From NCBI RefSeq assembly GCF_036417845.1, contig NC_089979.1, positions 26,601,958 to 26,665,957 of the forward strand: DNA of 64,000 nucleotides, in the 5' to 3' direction. The position numbers and the translations under genes are program-made. Positions 4,207 through 41,439 of the stretch are shown piece by piece. This stretch comes from Apteryx mantelli (Eukaryota; Chordata; Aves; Apterygiformes; Apterygidae). Under the pieces are notes generated by a model. It saw nothing but the letters and a program-made list of their open reading frames with translations. It had not been told where the DNA came from and did no database searches. Positions within the stretch are counted from its first letter, which is position 1. The number at the start of each line of letters is the position of its first letter.

Positions 4207-4834
4207 ACCTGGATGAGGAAGAGTGGTATATTAAAATAAGTTATAGTTTGATCAAAAATAGCAAGAAAAAGTCTAGAGAGCCTGATACTTTTTTTTTGTT
4301 GAAAATCTCAGCTGGAAAGCACGAACACATGGCAACAGTGAGAGAACAAACCCCGCTGGAAAGATGTTAGCACAGTGTTTAATGCATTACCAGAATACAC
4401 ACAATGACTATGAGGATGTGACTAGTCATGAAAACCCATATAGAATAAAAGCTTTTTAAAATTTGGCTTTGCTGTAAGTTCAAATGGGTGTATCTTAGGG
4501 TGGAAAATAGTTTCTTGCTTTTCTCATTGGCTTTGCAAAATACATTGGAGCAAAGAGATCCAAGAAAGTCATGACTTACTGTGTTTTTCCTCTGTGAAGA
4601 TCACCATCACAGCAAGCTGTGTACTCAAAGGCTGGATGGTTTGAGCAAGAGTATTGTTTAATGCTAATGCAAACACTTTTGTACGTGACACTTTAAAAAC
4701 ATAAATTAAAAATGAATTACATGTTTCACAAGAAATTTCAAAGTTGATTGTAAATTAATACCATAGACAGGAAACAGACTGAAATAACTTTTGGGGTAGA
4801 AATGACAATTGTCCAATAAAGAAATACTGCTGTA
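4207..4834. other. Non-coding flank of the Tigger1 insertion
   Basis: No gene or repeat is recognised. It is AT-rich sequence leading to the TA target dinucleotide at 4835-4836. Confidence 0.4.
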
Positions 4835-4836
4835 TA

Positions 4837-7237
4837 CAGGCATACCTTGTTTTATTGCACCTTGTTTTATTGCATTTCACAGATATTGCATCTTTTACAA
4901 ATTGAAGGTTTGTGGCAACCCTGCGTTGAGCAAGACTGTCAGCGCCATTTTTCCAACAGCATGTGCTCACTTCGTGTCTCTGTGTCACATTTTGGTAATT
5001 CTCACAATATTTCAAACTTTTTCATTATTATTATATCTGTTATGGTGATCTGTGATCAGTGATCTTTGATGTTACTACTGTAATTGTTTTGGGGTGCCAT
5101 GAACCACGCCCATATAAGACAGTGAACTTAATCGATAAATGTTGTGCGTGTTCTGACTGCTCCACCGACTGGCCGTTCCCCCATCTTTCTCCCTCTCCTC
5201 AGGCCTCCCTATTCCCTGAGACACAACAATATTGAAATTAGGCCAGTTAACAACCCTACAATGGCCTTTAAGTGTTCAAGGGAAGAGTCACACATCTCTC
5301 ACTTTAAATCAAAAGCTAGAAATGATGAAGCTTAGTGAGGAAGGCCTGTCGAAAGCTGAGACAGGCTGAAAGTGAGGCCTCTTGAGCCAAGCAGTTAGAC
5401 AAATTGTGAAGGCAAAGAAAAGTTCTTGAAGGAAATTCAAAGTGCTACTCCAGTGAACACACGAATGATAAGAAAGCAAAACAGCCTTCTTGCTGACATG
5501 GAGAAAGTTTTAGTGGTCTGGATAGAAGATCAAACCAGCCATAACATTCCTGTAAGCCAAAGCCTAATCCAGAGCAAGGCCCTGACTCTCTTCAATTCTA
5601 TGAAGGCTGAGAGAGGTGAGGAAGCTGCAGAAGAAAAGTTTGAAGCTAGCAGAGGCTGGTTCATGAAGTTCAAGGAAGAAGCTGTCTGCATAACATAAGT
5701 GCAAGGTGAAGCAGCAAGTGCTGATGTAGAAGCTGCAGCAAGTTATCCAGAAGATTTAGCTAAGAGAACTGATGAAGGTGGCTACACTAAACAACAGATT
5801 TTCAGTGTAGATAAAACAGACTTATATTGGAAGAAGATGCCATCTAGGACTTTCATAGCTAGAGAGAAGTCTATGCCTGGCTTCAAAGCTTCAAAGGACA
5901 GGCTGACTCTCTTGTTAGGGGCTAATGCAGTTGGTGACTTTAAGCTGAAGCCAGTGCTCATTTACCATGCTGAAAATCCTAGGGCCCTGGAGAATTATGC
6001 TCAGTCTACTCTGCCTGTGCTCTATAAATGGAACAGCAAAGCCTGGATGACAGCACATCTGTTTACAACATGGTTTACTGAATATTTTAAACCCACTGTT
6101 GAGACCTACTGCTCAGAAAAAAAGATTCCTTTCAAAATATTACTGCTCATTGACGATGCACCTGGTCACCCAAGAGCTCTGATGGAGATGTACAACAAGA
6201 TTAATGTTGTTTTCATGCCTGCTAACACAACATCCATTCTGCAGCCCATGGATCAAGGAGTCATTTTGACTTTCAAGTCTTATTATTTAAGAAATACATT
6301 TTGTAAGGCTAGAGCTGCTATGGATAGTGATTCCTCTGATGGATCTGGGCAAAGTAAATTGAAAACGTTCTGGAAAGGATTCACCATTCTAGGTGCCATT
6401 AAGAACACTCATGATTCATGGGAGGAGGTCAAAATATCAACATTAACAGGAGTTCGGTAGAAGTTGATTCCAGCCCTCATGGATGACTTGGGTTCAAGAC
6501 TTCAGTGAAGGAAGTAACTGCAGCTGTGGTGGAAATAGCAAGAGAACTAGAATTAGAAGGGGAGCCTGAAGATGTGACTGAATTGCTGCAATCTCATGAT
6601 AAAACTTTAATGGATGAGGAGTTGTTTCTTATGGATGAGCAAAGAAAGTGGTTTCTTGAGATGGAATCTACTCCTGGTGAAGATGCTGGGAACATTGTTG
6701 AAATGACAACAAAGGATTTAGAATATTACATAAAGTTAGCTGATAAAGCAGTGGCAGAATTTGAGAGGATTGACTCCAATTTTGAAGGAAGTTCTATTGT
6801 GGGTAAAATGCTGTCAAACAGCATCTCTTGCTACAGAGAAATCCTTTGTGAAAGGAAGAGTCAAACGATGCGGCAAACTTCATTGCTGCCTTATTTTAAG
6901 AAATTGCCACAGCCACCCTGACCTTCAGCAACCACCACCCTGATCAGTCAGCAGCCATCAATATTGAGGCAAGACTCTCCATCAGCAAAAAGATTACAAC
7001 TCGCTGAAGGCTCAGATGATGGTTAGCATTTTTTAGCAAAAAAGTATTTTTTAATTAAGGTATGTACATTTTTTTTAGACATAATGCTATTGCACACTTA
7101 ATAGACTACAGTATAGTGTAAACATAACTTTTATATGCGCTGGGAAACCAAAAAATGTATGTGACTCACTTTATTGTGATATTCGCTGTATTGCAGTGGT
7201 CTGGAACCGAACCTGCAATATCTCTGAGGTATGCCTG
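4837..7237 (+). mobile_element. Tigger1-like DNA transposon (Tc1/mariner superfamily, pogo/Tigger group), full length
   Basis: The element is bounded by inverted termini starting CAGGCATACC and ending GGTATGCCTG. It is flanked by TA dinucleotides at 4835-4836 and 7238-7239, the target duplication expected of Tc1/mariner transposons. Its 2401-bp length is close to the roughly 2.4 kb I recall for mammalian Tigger1, and the whole sequence reads like that consensus, with many differences at former CpG sites (CG to TG or CA). It carries a CENP-B/pogo-type transposase gene, broken in several places, so it is not autonomous. Family assignment is from memory, without alignment. Tigger1 is known to me from placental mammals, so a copy in an avian genome is unexpected. 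Other pogo-like families are possible but unlikely given the near-consensus termini. Confidence 0.9.
5261..6921 (+). pseudogene. Tigger1-type transposase pseudogene (DDD catalytic core, broken frame)
   Basis: The family protein has N-terminal CENP-B-like helix-turn-helix domains and a DDD integrase-fold core that cuts at the element ends. The ATG at 5261 opens the expected frame, but a small deletion shifts it within a few codons and it stops at 5335. The DNA-binding part resumes at 5426-5698. The core is read from 5699 to 6460 and keeps all three expected acidic positions: D in SVDKT (5810-5812), D in LLIDDAPGH (6152-6154) and D in QPMDQG (6251-6253). Then a TAG at 6458-6460 and a frame change separate it from the C-terminal part (6505-6921), which ends early at a TGA. 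At least two frameshifts and several stops make it non-functional. No host splice sites suggest domestication. Confidence 0.88.
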
Positions 7238-7239
7238 TA

Positions 7240-9830
7240 TGTGTGTTTGTAAGAGAATGAGGAATATTGAAGTATGCTCAAATGGTGCGTGTTTTCCTGT
7301 TTAGCACAAAAAGCTGCTTTCTACAGAAAGCACCTTGTTGACTCCTGCAGACTTGTTCAAACTCCTGTAATATCAGTCAGCATCTCCCCAGAAACAATTT
7401 ACTTCCTGGGTGCACTTATGGAAGATAGAATACACCCATTATTATTAGTGAGCCTTGCCATCAGCAATCTCAGCTCTAGGGTACTGTGGTGATTAATACT
7501 TGTGGAAAGTCTGAATAAGGTTTGCATGTCGTGGAGGAAGAGGATGCTTGTGGCCCTGTTCTTATTTGGGGAACGCTAAGTTATGTATGCTAAAGAACAT
7601 TAACATTTCTGATCACCATTTTACAAAGAATATCATAAAGACAGAAAGAGGTTGTCTCATGGAAACAACTAGAAGGAGAACATAAAGAAGCATGAGATTA
7701 ATGCTTAAGGCCAGGTACTGCTTTCAGTTACACAGGTATTTAAATCTGGAGCAAGTCTATTAACATGAAAGCAATTTACTCCATATTTACCTAATTTTAG
7801 TTTGACAGAACTGGCCATTGATTTTCCACACTGTATTTTCTTTTTTTCTTTGTCCTTTTGTTTTCTTTTTTCTGCATCCTCTCCCAGCATACACCAGCCA
7901 GGCTTGTGGTTTAGTCCATTCCATTCACATCCATGTTTACATCCTTCTGTACTTACCCTGTATTTTTCCTTGAACACAATACAATTACGTACATAAATAC
8001 TGCTTGTAACACTCATAAAATCTTGTTTATGCACACTCTGTCCATCTCATAGTGTTACAAAGTTCCATTCATGCTGTTACATCTTGGTTTCCACAGTAAC
8101 TGTATTGCTCCAAAAGGGGGAAAACCAGAAATTCTTAAAGGGGGGGCGGGGGGAGTCAAGTTTCAAATAAGTGCCACAAAGAATAGGGTACTGTTAGGTT
8201 TTTAAACACCACTCATAACTAATGGGCTGGATCCAATGCCCCTCAAGTCAACAAGAGTCTTTCTCATAAATAAGCAATGATCAGGTCACTTCTATGGTGA
8301 TGTTCACTGAATAGCATCCTTGCTTTCAGACATGAGGAGAAACAACAACTGAAAGTTTTCAGATGAGTCCAGCTATTCAAGTAGTTTTGGAACTATGCAG
8401 CAGATGCCATTGCTGGAGCTGACAGCGCATTACCTGAGACCAGTTCAGGAGATGGATTACACCGGGGCTGCTGGAATCTTTACTGATTCTTTACTGTATT
8501 TTGCAAGCCAAAAGCTCAGAAAGAATGACTTTGACCCACAACATTTATGCTGCATAGCTCTAGAAGCATATTGCATACATCCACTGATAGAGAAGAATTT
8601 GAGGTAAGTGCATAGAAATTGCATTGCCATTAGCTAGAGTATGTGCCATTTCCTCTCAAGAATCCTGCACTTACAAGGTCTCTGGCAGACTTTTGTGATG
8701 ATAAACTCATGCACATCAATTTTTTCAGCATTTCTGAACTATACTGCTTTTGACTTAGGGAGTCTATGCTGGACTTGGTCCTTCATAGTTAGCATGGGAC
8801 AAATGATACCTGACATGTAATTTAAGAAAACAGCATAGAATTTATGACTTTCCTTTTTAATAGCCATGAAGTAATCATTGCAGGATAACATCTCTTTCTC
8901 TCAAAAAGGCCTTCAGTGTAATATAAATGGCCAATAATCATGGAAGGTAGAGACAAAGCCACTGAAAACTCATGATGGCAGGACGGCATTCAATGGGGTG
9001 AGGAAATCACACAACTGAATTATCATTTTATTTTAAAAAGACCTTGACTTCCTTATTCCCAGTAATGTTTCCCCATAACATTTTTCCTTGCCTGAACCAC
9101 ATTGCTTTTTACTTGGTGCAAATCACCCTGAACATAGAAAGATACATCTAGTTCACTTAGATTTTTTGGTTTCTACTCTGCTGAGGTGGCTAACCAACTC
9201 AGTCCCCTTCCTTATGGAGGGCTGGCTTTACCTTTGTAACCTTTACCTTGCTTTCCAATAGTCTAAATAGCTTTTTTTTTTTCCTCCTGCTTTTGGGACT
9301 TGCTTCATCTTCAAACTATCTCATTACAATTCTACGTTACTTTTTTCTTACAATAACAAAGAAAAATGTGTTCAGAGCTTAAAGCTAAAGCTGTTGCAAC
9401 CAGTGTCTAAGCATTTTAATCGATTTTTTTCATTTAGCTACCTTCACCATTTAACCAAATAGGGAGTAACCAAGTTCCATACATTAAGAACTACCTTGCA
9501 TCTCTTACTTATACAAGCCATTTTTACTAACACAAGCAGTGCTGTTGAGTTCCAGCACATTAATACCTGCATTTGTAAGAATTGAGAAAACAGGCTAGTG
9601 CACCTGTGATAGCAATTTTTCTTAAAATTGTTTAGGAAAGGATCAAGATCAGTTGGCTGTAAAGTCATCCCTTCCAAAAGTTATTTTGATGTTGCAGAGC
9701 TGAACAGACCAAAACTGAAAGAGCTTGTGGAATGCCTCAGTCTGTTAATGAATATAGTTCAACTGAAGCATCATCTCTATCATCTAGACTTGCAAAAGCA
9801 GGCAAGCATCTGATCTTAGAGCCGGTTTAT
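7240..9830. other. Non-coding stretch downstream of Tigger1
   Basis: No gene is recognised. There is a G-rich run near 8140-8154 and an isolated 70-codon open frame at 8395-8607 that runs into a donor-like GAGGTAAGT. I find no similarity for that frame and no convincing partner exon. Confidence 0.4.
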
Positions 9831-34804: not shown

Positions 34805-34950
34805 TGGTGCACTACATATACCTAGTACTTTGCACTTACAGACTGTAAAATGCTTTATGAAAAAATTACAATTATTGATCTTTTATAGATCAGTAGACAA
34901 TGGCACTGAAAAGTAGAGCACTTTGCACAGCATTGTACAATAAGTCAACG
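34805..34950 (+). mobile_element. Possible MIR-like SINE fragment
   Basis: Contains CTAGTACTTTGCACTTACA, then TTTTATAGATCAG and AGAGCACTTTGCACAGC, in the order of MIR core landmarks but strongly mutated. It lies about 100 bp left of the AAAGG tract. Confidence 0.4.
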
Positions 34951-35051
34951 TTAAAGATAAAAAACAAGATCTCCAGGGTTGCCAGTCCAGGGTTGCCCAA
35001 TCCTTCCCCAGATAATATAGTAAATGCATTGTGTATATATGTACACAGAAT

Positions 35052-35311
35052 AAGGAAAGGAAAGGAAAGGAAAGGAAAGGAAAGGAAAGGAAAGGAAAGG
35101 AAAGGAAAGGAAAGGAAAGGAAAGGAAAGGAAAGGAAAGGAAAGGAAAGGAAAGGAAAGGAAAGGAAAGGAAAGGAAAGGAAAGGAAAGGAAAGGAAAGG
35201 AAAGGAAAGGAAAGGAAAGGAAAGGAAAGGAAAGGAAAGGAAAGGAAAGGAAAGGAAAGGAAAGGAAAGGAAAGGAAAGGAAAGGAAAGGAAAGGAAAGG
35301 AAAGGAAAGGA
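35052..35311 (+). repeat. Pure (AAAGG)52 pentanucleotide microsatellite
   Basis: About 260 bases of AAAGG units with no interruption. All purines are on one strand, giving perfect mirror symmetry of the kind that can form triplex (H-DNA). The motif has no stop codon in any of six frames, so the long Lys-Gly-Glu-Arg and Leu-Ser-Phe-Pro open frames across it are artefacts. It sits in intron 1 of ANKRD46. A tract this pure is likely length-polymorphic, and its assembled length may not be exact. Confidence 0.98.
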
Positions 35312-36140
35312 GTTAGGGTAAATGGGTAAATGCCAAATTTGCCCTGATATAGGACTTAATTTTAACAGAATTTTATTGGCAAGCAGATTCACAAATATTT
35401 TATGCTCACTACACTTCACAGGTAATTCGGTTGCATTAATTGTTTCAGTGCACTTTATCAAATATACATTTAAATATTTCTGAATCTTGCCCATTTTTTA
35501 TCTTTTACAAAATAAGCATTCAAGAAGAAAGGTAACTTATAGGAGTTATAAACAGGTTTCTTTGGATTATCTATAACTTTAATTTCCTACAACTACCTCA
35601 TGTAAAATCAGTAAAGTGACTGAAGCAAGCTCCTGAAGGATTTCACTTCAATAGTTCCCTATTCATTGTTATTAGTTTGACTATATCTGCTTTTATAGAA
35701 AACTACTAAATCATACATTTTCGTCATAATTGTTGAGGTCTTCAGAAACGTTTATTCAAATCCTTCTTTGTTTTTGCTGGGAATGTGAAGGGTGCTAATG
35801 TATGTTGGCCAAGAAAGTCTTAAAGGTCACTGAAGTTTGTTTTTTTTTTAAGCAGACTAAAGAGCATTAGCCCCATTCCTACTGAAGTGTTTAAGTTTGC
35901 TGCAGGCCTTGGAACAGTCTTCTGGAAAAGACGACAAACTGTAACTGAGCAACAAGAAATCATTAATAAGTACGTCAGACAAACTGCGTAAGTATCGTTT
36001 ATAGATAGAAGAATAGTGCCACTATGTGGCCTGACAAATTACTGCTCAACTGAAGTAAATAGTGTGATGTATAACCCCAGACCCATTCAGATTACTTTCT
36101 CTAGCTTTTGTAGTGTTTTCTATTTTTCTAGAAAGGAAAC

Positions 36141-39660: not shown

Positions 39661-41064
39661 CAGAATCACAGAGGTTGGAAGGGACCTCTGGAGATCATCT
39701 AGTCCAACCCCCCTGCTCAAGCAGGGTCACCTAGAGCACATTGCACAGGATTGCATCCAGGCGCGTTTTGAATATCTCCAGAGAAGGAGACTCCACAACC
39801 TCTCTGGGCAACCTGTGCCAGTGTTCTGTCACCCTCACAGTGAAAAAGTATTTCCTCATGTTCAGGTGGAATTGTCTGTGTTTCAGTTTGTGCCCGTTGC
39901 CTCGCGTCCTGTCACTAGGCACCACTGAAAAGAGTCTGGTCCCATCCTCTTGACACCCTCCCTTCAGATACTTGTACATGTTGATAAGATCTCCTCTCAG
40001 CCTTCTCTTCTCCAAGCTAAACAGGCCAAGCTCTCTCAGTCTTTCCTCATGAGAGAGATGTTCCAGTCCCCTAATCATCTTTGTAGCCCTTCGCTGGACT
40101 TGCTCCAGTAGTGCCACATCCCTCTTGTACTGGGGAGCCCAGCACTGGACTCAGTACTCCAGATGTGGCCTCACCAGGGCTGAGTAGAGGGCAAGGATCA
40201 CCTCCCTCGACCTGCTGGCACCACTCTTCCTGATGCACCCCAGGATACCGTTGGCCTTCTTGGCCACAAGGGCACATTGCTGCCTCATGCTTAACTTGGT
40301 GTCCACCAGCACTCCCAGGTCCTTCTCCGCAGAGCTGCTTTCCAGCAGGTCAACCCCCAACCTGTACTGGTGCATGGGGTTATTCCTCCCTAGGTGCAGG
40401 ACCCTGCACTTGCCTTTGTTGAACTTCATGAGGTTCCTCTCCGCCCACCTCTCCAGCCTGTCCAGGTCTCTCTGAATGGCAGCACAGCCCTCCGGTGTAT
40501 CGGCCACTCCTCCCAGTTTTGTATCATCAGCAAACTTTCTGAGGGTGCACTCTGTCCCTTCATCCAGGTCATTGATGAAGAAGTTGAACAAGACTGGACC
40601 CAGTACTGACCCCTGGGGGACACCGCTAGCTACAGGCCTCCAACTAGACTCTGTGCCACTGATCACAACCCTCTGAGCTCTGCCATTCAGCCAGTTCTCA
40701 GTCCACCTCACTGTCCACTCATCCAGCCCACACTTCCTGAGCTTGTCTATGAGGATGTTATGGGAGACAGTGTCAAAAGCCTTGCTGAAGTCAAGGTAGA
40801 CACCATCCACTGCTCTCCCCTCATCTACCCAGCCAGTCATTCCATCATAGAAGGCTATCAGATTGGTTAAGCATGATTTCCCCTTGGTGAAGCCATGCCG
40901 ACTACTCCTGATCACTTTCTTGTCCTCCACATGCTTAGAGATGGCCTCCAGGATGAGCTGCTCCATCACTTTTCCAGGGATGGAGGTGAGGCTGAGTGGC
41001 CTGTAGTTCCCTGGGTCCTCCTTCTTGCCCTTTTTGAAGACTGGGGTAACATTGGCCTTCCAGT
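39661..41064 (-). mobile_element. CR1 retrotransposon, 5'-truncated, young, with target-site duplication
   Basis: The left end is the avian CR1 3' terminus in reverse (TCACAGAATCACAGAGGTTG at 39658-39677). The right end is a truncation inside the RT gene at about 41064. The 10-mer CTTCAGCTCA lies on both sides (39651-39660 and 41065-41074), the apparent target-site duplication. The endonuclease and N-terminal RT regions are missing, so the copy cannot move on its own. Compared with the other CR1 pieces here it is well preserved. It lies in ANKRD46 intron 1 in the same orientation as the gene. Confidence 0.93.
39731..41064 (-). pseudogene. CR1 reverse transcriptase, C-terminal part, one in-frame stop
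   Basis: The minus frame is open from the truncation point at 41064 through about 304 codons. It meets a TGA at 40151-40153, then continues in the same frame to a natural-looking end at 39731. RT landmarks are visible: [12 protein letters not shown] (motif A), [15 protein letters not shown] (motif B), FADDTKLGG (catalytic box, both aspartates present) and the CR1 C-terminal domain ([14 protein letters not shown]). Only one nonsense change in about 444 codons points to recent insertion. It lacks its endonuclease domain. Confidence 0.9.
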
Positions 41065-41439
41065 CTTCAGCTCAATTTATTTGTTTCATGGTGTTTACCT
41101 TGATGGTTCAATTGAAAACAAAAAAGGCCTTTATTCTGCAGAACTGAGCAAGCCAAATACTTTTTTCAAGATAGGTTCTCCACTTCCCTACTCATACTAC
41201 GCAAACCCTCCTCTTTCTGTTCCACTTTAAGTTCATCTTTTTATTTGAGAGTGATTAACATTGTATGGAATATTCTAGAGTTTTGCTCAAGGATAGTAGT
41301 AACATCTTTTTCTGGAACATCATAGGTCTGCATTCACCTTTTGCACAATAATGTATCTTTTAACCAGCTAATATATCTACATATTTTGTTTCTGTGTTGC
41401 TTTAAACTGGTAAGAATTTCATCTGTAGAATAGATGCTT

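Follow-up and report, generated by a model that had tools for sequence, protein, structure and literature searches.

Tigger1 (TIGGER1 in Repbase) is a DNA transposon family with placental mammals as its customary hosts. Published consensus sequences are 2408-2419 bp long in four mammals, and the multiple copies in eutherian genomes have been attributed to an expansion some 100 My ago, ahead of the placental radiation (PMC3517439). The closest report from a bird concerns brown kiwi, in which more than 20 insertions resembling Tigger1_MNa, from the bat Miniopterus natalensis, match the bat consensus with at least 97% identity; contamination or vertical descent of these insertions was left unexcluded (Platt et al., 2016; PMC4971623). 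Tigger elements in one bird species are mentioned by Diaby et al. (2022; PMC9219625), and repeat tables for birds such as spotted owl and blood pheasant give small TcMar-Tigger counts, with Tigger1 not named in them. In our searches of the open-licence literature we came across no study that decides between contamination and transfer for kiwi Tigger1. As far as our searches show, Tigger1-like insertions in kiwi are already known, and the confirmation of the family, its size and divergence, a conversion gradient and a selected copy are new.

A full-length, inactive Tigger1 copy and its bird surroundings

We analysed a stretch of 64,000 nucleotides from Apteryx mantelli, referred to as the window. 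On its plus strand, positions 4837-7237 form one end-to-end copy of Tigger1, a cut-and-paste transposon of the pogo group within Tc1/mariner, as judged from the sequence, an inverted-repeat search, a genome search and alignment to a family consensus. The copy is 2401 bp long, against 2419 bp for the consensus. Its terminal inverted repeats are CAGGCATACC/GGTATGCCTG. The 5' repeat, CAGGCATACCT, occupies 4837-4847 (plus strand) and the 3' repeat 7227-7237 (minus strand), with the TA target-site duplications at 4835-4836 and 7238-7239 read from the sequence and the inverted-repeat search. Including the TA, the arms at 4834-4847 and 7227-7240 are inverted copies of each other without mismatch over 14 nt and are separated by 2379 nt. 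A sequence-only reading of the window had described a full-length Tigger1-like transposon here, and the coordinates, inverted repeats, TA duplications and length that it gave are all exact.

The transposase gene, with start and stop read off the sequence, extends over 5261-7026 (plus strand) and corresponds to 593 codons in the family consensus. Pfam families were found in two of its three pieces: the HTH_Tnp_Tc5 DNA-binding domain at 5492-5677 (PF03221, E 1.5e-14) and the DDE_1 catalytic domain at 5894-6448 (PF03184, E 1.5e-50), both on the plus strand. The third piece, a 144-residue stop-free frame at 6487-6921 (plus strand), is the C-terminal part of the transposase shifted out by a frameshift, and a Pfam search assigned no family to it. 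A search with the DDE part gave no relative in the PDB at E values up to 1. Because the transposase frame contains four stops and five frameshifts, the copy is inactive although it is full-length. The earlier description of the element as almost unbroken therefore holds for the sequence, which runs from end to end, but not for the transposase frame. The copy differs from the family consensus at 5.0% of all aligned sites, and at 3.4% outside CpG, and retains 19 CpGs against 55 in the consensus.

The remainder of the window agrees with the bird host named in the same reading. A reverse-transcriptase frame at 39731-41071 (minus strand), with Pfam RVT_1 in its first piece and no Pfam family in its second, is presumably CR1 ORF2; it has a single in-frame stop, so we regard this CR1-type copy as young. 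An ankyrin exon and a sorting-nexin FERM exon, with the domains identified by Pfam, are taken by us to belong to ANKRD46 and SNX31, respectively. Elsewhere in the genome, the alpha-A globin exons have 3a59/3fs4 as their best single-match PDB entry, which we take to be ostrich globin; six higher rows are chains that match twice. A recent CR1-Y burst has been described in kiwis (Galbraith et al., PMC8665684). A long array of (AAAGG)n pentamers, with several of its frames open, occupies positions 34890-35320 of the window. Part of the CR1-type frame recurs, with 96% identity across 300 bases, in the left flank of another Tigger copy, L054. A COX1 search of the assembly revealed no intact COX1 and no mitochondrial contig; fragments with stops at C12:14097524 and C2:89840049 are likely nuclear copies of mitochondrial DNA.

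Family size, consensus and probable route of entry

The assembly searched is of chromosome scale (1.504 Gb, 408 contigs). A whole-element search returned 884 candidate places, of which 40 were scored, giving 43 match rows; these 40 places are 88-93% identical to the window copy, itself excepted. Four more whole-element searches used copies L037, L003, L039 and L005 as queries, with 40 places scored for each. A 30-mer from the middle of the element matched the genome 476 times with up to three mismatches, and a 30-mer pattern from the 3' end 663 times, while the reversed controls of both gave no matches. The excess of 3'-end matches suggests further deleted or truncated forms. We read 83 copies, 63 picked by similarity and 20 picked by position from the listed exact matches to the mid-element pattern. 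Deletions that run from 1065 or 1084 to 1714-1728 (near 1716) are present in seven of the 20 position-picked copies. The internal deletions shared by L072, L080, L081 and L085-L088 mark non-autonomous Tigger1 subfamilies. Eleven of the long copies scored lie within 14 Mb at C1:106.9-120.5 Mb, perhaps a local concentration.

TA is present on both flanks of 59 of the 83 copies, where the flank background predicts 0.46. Flanks of different copies do not match each other in BLAST at E 1e-4, and the copies reside on contigs of up to 223 Mb. Copy L039 is inserted within CR1 sequence: its joined flanks align across the joint, with 65% identity, to the CR1 in the window, which thus represents a paralogous empty site. 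It is the only spanning case among the 83 joined flanks tested.

The family consensus (2419 bp), built from the first 40 copies, contains an intact frame of 593 codons with D187, D302 and D335. The last two are separated by 32 residues, making a DD32D triad. For the same 40 copies, the K2P distance to the consensus averages 0.052 over all sites, or 0.040 with CpG left out. The non-CpG mean is 0.0419 for the 63 similarity-picked and 0.0392 for the 20 position-picked copies, and the copies are about equally distant from the consensus. Divergence from the family consensus outside CpG is about 4% on average, with the window copy slightly below this value.

As a yardstick we used a provisional eutherian Tigger1 consensus. 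It has the same length as the bird consensus and differs from it at 20 of 2419 positions with no gaps (99.2% identity), and the synonymous divergence from this provisional sequence is 1.1% (dS 0.011). The window copy departs from the bird consensus at 121 sites; at 118 of these the yardstick agrees with the bird consensus, which guards against a yardstick biased towards the window copy. The yardstick's base occurs in at most 7 of the 83 bird copies at 12 of the 20 sites that differ. The other eight are mixed within the bird family, with the yardstick's base the commoner one at two of them, and it is therefore possible that there was more than one founder sequence. The yardstick is backed by the published consensus lengths (PMC3517439) and by the published kiwi match (PMC4971623).

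We conclude, with a probability of roughly 0.93, that horizontal transfer brought Tigger1 into the bird lineage, where it multiplied by means of its own transposase, fell silent and left copies that drifted. The transfer would have come from a eutherian lineage with Tigger1, or through the same vector as that lineage. The anatomy of the element points to cut-and-paste insertion into TA by the encoded DDE transposase, which would then have spread Tigger1 in the bird genome. Internally deleted, non-autonomous forms probably arose before the family fell silent, and the copies would since have drifted by about 4-5%, with neighbours on the same chromosome partly homogenised by gene conversion. None of our observations demands present Tigger1 activity. 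Bird substitution rates are about 1.9e-9 per site per year, with slow rates of 0.8-1e-9, which would place the age of the bird copies at about 20-27 My or 40-65 My, respectively. Eutherian Tigger1, at about 100 My, is older, so either the donor had a late active copy or the bird rate was very slow.

The genome-wide copies exclude a chance match and a one-off chimera. Contamination with mammalian DNA, which Platt et al. could not exclude for the kiwi genome that they searched (PMC4971623), deserves next to no weight, since there are hundreds of copies on chromosome-sized contigs, mostly with TA ends and in unlike flanks, one of them nested in a CR1 copy. The sequence-only reading had named chimera or contamination as what might refute it, and the same copies refute both. 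Vertical inheritance from an amniote ancestor might appear attractive given that TIGD1, TIGD4 and TIGD5 sequences have been reported to occur widely among tetrapods (PMC7325037), and a neutral, vertical reading of the kiwi matches was left open by Platt et al. (PMC4971623). Against it, marsupials carry only one or two degenerate copies (PMC3517439), and among the genomes mined by Diaby et al. Tigger, not necessarily Tigger1, was in one bird species (PMC9219625). The low divergence of the bird copies from their own consensus, 4-5% on average, also favours the horizontal origin that had been proposed for the element. The separation of birds and mammals dates back some 320 My, with which a synonymous divergence of only about 1% from the provisional eutherian consensus is incompatible, and vertical descent thus appears very unlikely.

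A bird family that is instead the sister of eutherian Tigger1, with a third host or vector as the source of both, is a possibility that we would take seriously without favouring it. The 12 sites at which the provisional eutherian base is rare among the bird copies are in agreement with such a history. So is the distance of mammalian copies from their consensus (12.1-28.0% in four species, PMC3517439; 13.6-16.0% in bats, PMC4971623), which is much larger than that of the bird copies. Searches of viral contigs, prokaryote genome contigs, plasmids and phages yielded no relatives, which speaks against a third host among these collections, although a eukaryotic donor is not expected there. These findings settle the doubt left in print: kiwi Tigger1 is genuine and present in large numbers, and horizontal transfer is its best explanation.

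Divergence between neighbouring copies

Among the first 55 copies, both members of each of the eleven closest pairs share a contig, at separations of 13 kb to 1.2 Mb. The nearest relative is within 2 Mb for 21 of the 55, compared with a mean of 0.66 and a maximum of 5 in 2000 shuffles. Over all 83 copies, the mean p-distance rises with separation, from 0.009 below 100 kb (n=9) and 0.023 at 100-500 kb (n=9) to 0.059 at 0.5-1.5 Mb (n=16) and 0.080 at 1.5-3 Mb (n=11). It levels off at 0.087 for 3-10 Mb (n=72) and 0.088 beyond (n=529), close to the 0.0885 of unlinked pairs (n=2757). All 18 pairs less than 0.5 Mb apart are closer than any unlinked pair, the lowest of which is at 0.060. When further pairs were examined, 13 of 13 with a separation under 420 kb were likewise below the lowest of the 2757 unlinked pairs; ten of these had been picked by position from exact pattern matches and three from similarity searches. 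Examples of near pairs on C1, C2, C3, C4, C13 and C44 include L003/L004, L008/L011, L028/L030, L051/L062, L061/L068 and L069/L070.

The differences within near pairs are unevenly distributed. In the 18 pairs less than 0.5 Mb apart the core has diverged by 0.9% and the ends by 4.7%, whereas the values for unlinked pairs are 8.4% and 10.2%. The core is less diverged than the ends in 15 of the 18, the two are equal (both zero) in two pairs, and the order is slightly reversed in one. In L028/L030, for instance, all 13 substitutions fall within the first 200 bases. That near copies are alike inside and less so at their ends points to distance-dependent ectopic gene conversion, as far as can be judged from the sequences. 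The evidence has exceptions: unevenness also occurs in some unlinked pairs, several near pairs rank no higher than the top 4-10% of the unlinked distribution, and for several pairs separated by 0.7-3 Mb the unevenness does not exceed the usual. The window copy, 1.2 Mb from L002, resembles it unusually closely, chiefly over its 3' 1400 bases, and may be partly converted with it; since 7.6% of unlinked pairs are equally uneven, we consider this conversion likely rather than shown.

Recent local hopping by a Tigger1 still active in the bird was our first reading of the close pairs. It would account for the linkage of the eleven closest pairs, and L003/L004 and L087/L088 have zero differences where compared. 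We abandoned it upon finding the differences mostly at the element ends: a hop carries the ends too, and ends that differ more than the core, as they do in 15 of the 18 pairs under 0.5 Mb, argue against one. We consider hopping improbable as a general account, and possible for the two equal pairs and the reversed one. With gene conversion as the preferred reading, the copies would constitute a natural ruler for conversion between dispersed repeats, strong below about 0.5 Mb and fading by 1.5-3 Mb, and the gradient matters for dating transposons by copy-to-copy divergence. A limited literature search, which is no proof of novelty, found no direct precedent for distance-dependent gene conversion.

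A copy with an intact frame, and comparison with known systems

Stops and frameshifts were scored in 55 copies, and the 28 later ones were screened for missense and nonsense changes only. Among the 55, L005 (C5:50322891-50325284, minus strand) is the sole copy in which the 593-codon frame has no stops and no frameshifts and keeps both start and stop. It carries 18 nonsynonymous and 26 synonymous changes, corresponding to a dN/dS of 0.19, against 0.75 for the pooled copies. Outside CpG there are 16 missense and 21 synonymous changes, a missense deficit relative to the other copies with p = 1.2e-4, or about 0.01 after correction for 83 copies. L005 is not merely young, because 63 of the 638 sites in its noncoding part have departed from the consensus. 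Every other copy among the 40 places scored with L005 as query is at most 94% identical to it. Two further copies were considered as intact-frame copies and rejected: L016 has lost its stop codon and has a dN/dS of 0.92, and L039 has lost start and stop, contains one stop and one frameshift and has a dN/dS of 1.03.

The 5' end of L005 faces about 1.5 kb with 64-78% GC and a CpG observed/expected ratio of 0.75-1.13. Head to head with it, on the opposite strand, lies a first exon with its start codon 2151 bp away (L064:1501-3000), which encodes a Pfam WW domain (E 6.2e-14) and which we take to belong to WWC2. We speculate that the CpG island of this WWC2-like exon could serve L005 as a two-way promoter. 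An intact, selected frame alongside a noncoding part that has drifted makes L005 a candidate host gene, a tentative assignment that we think has the lesser share of the probability. The other reading is that L005 is a long-lived last autonomous lineage.

If the candidate assignment of L005 is correct, a bird has independently tamed the same transposase that became TIGD1, the Tigger1-derived gene of mammals, and its location near a WWC2-like gene would make it a test case for parallel domestication. Like TIGD1, L005 keeps an intact Tigger1 transposase frame; it is a separate insertion, in a bird, and its domestication is putative. The DD32D triad of the bird consensus is that given for TIGD1 (PMC7325037).

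The bird family shares its length, inverted repeats, TA target, HTH_Tnp_Tc5 and DDE_1 domains and DD32D triad with placental Tigger1, in support of the identity assigned to it. The 99.2% identity to the provisional eutherian consensus would fit the same assignment, although the bird family is near-fixed for another base at 12 sites. The bird copies, at about 5% from their consensus over all sites, are far less diverged than those of the four mammals (PMC3517439), and the host is a bird instead of a placental mammal. The transfer would be an uncommon one for a DNA transposon, in that a family known chiefly from placental mammals reached a bird, and the insertions can mark ancestry within the kiwi lineage and help to place its encounter with the donor.

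Other transfers of transposons that involve vertebrates and distantly related animals differ in the element or in the hosts. AviRTE is a retrotransposon that also occurs in nematodes, Mariner-1_Tbel connects mammals with insects (PMC3517439), and the potential transfer between the manakin Corapipo altera and a butterfly concerns another pogo-like element (PMC7325037). Nearest of all is Tigger1_MNa with its brown kiwi matches (Platt et al., 2016; PMC4971623). The kiwi matches probably represent the present family, either in this host species or in a sister species; to them we add hundreds of copies, their TA junctions, divergence and deletion forms, and one selected frame.
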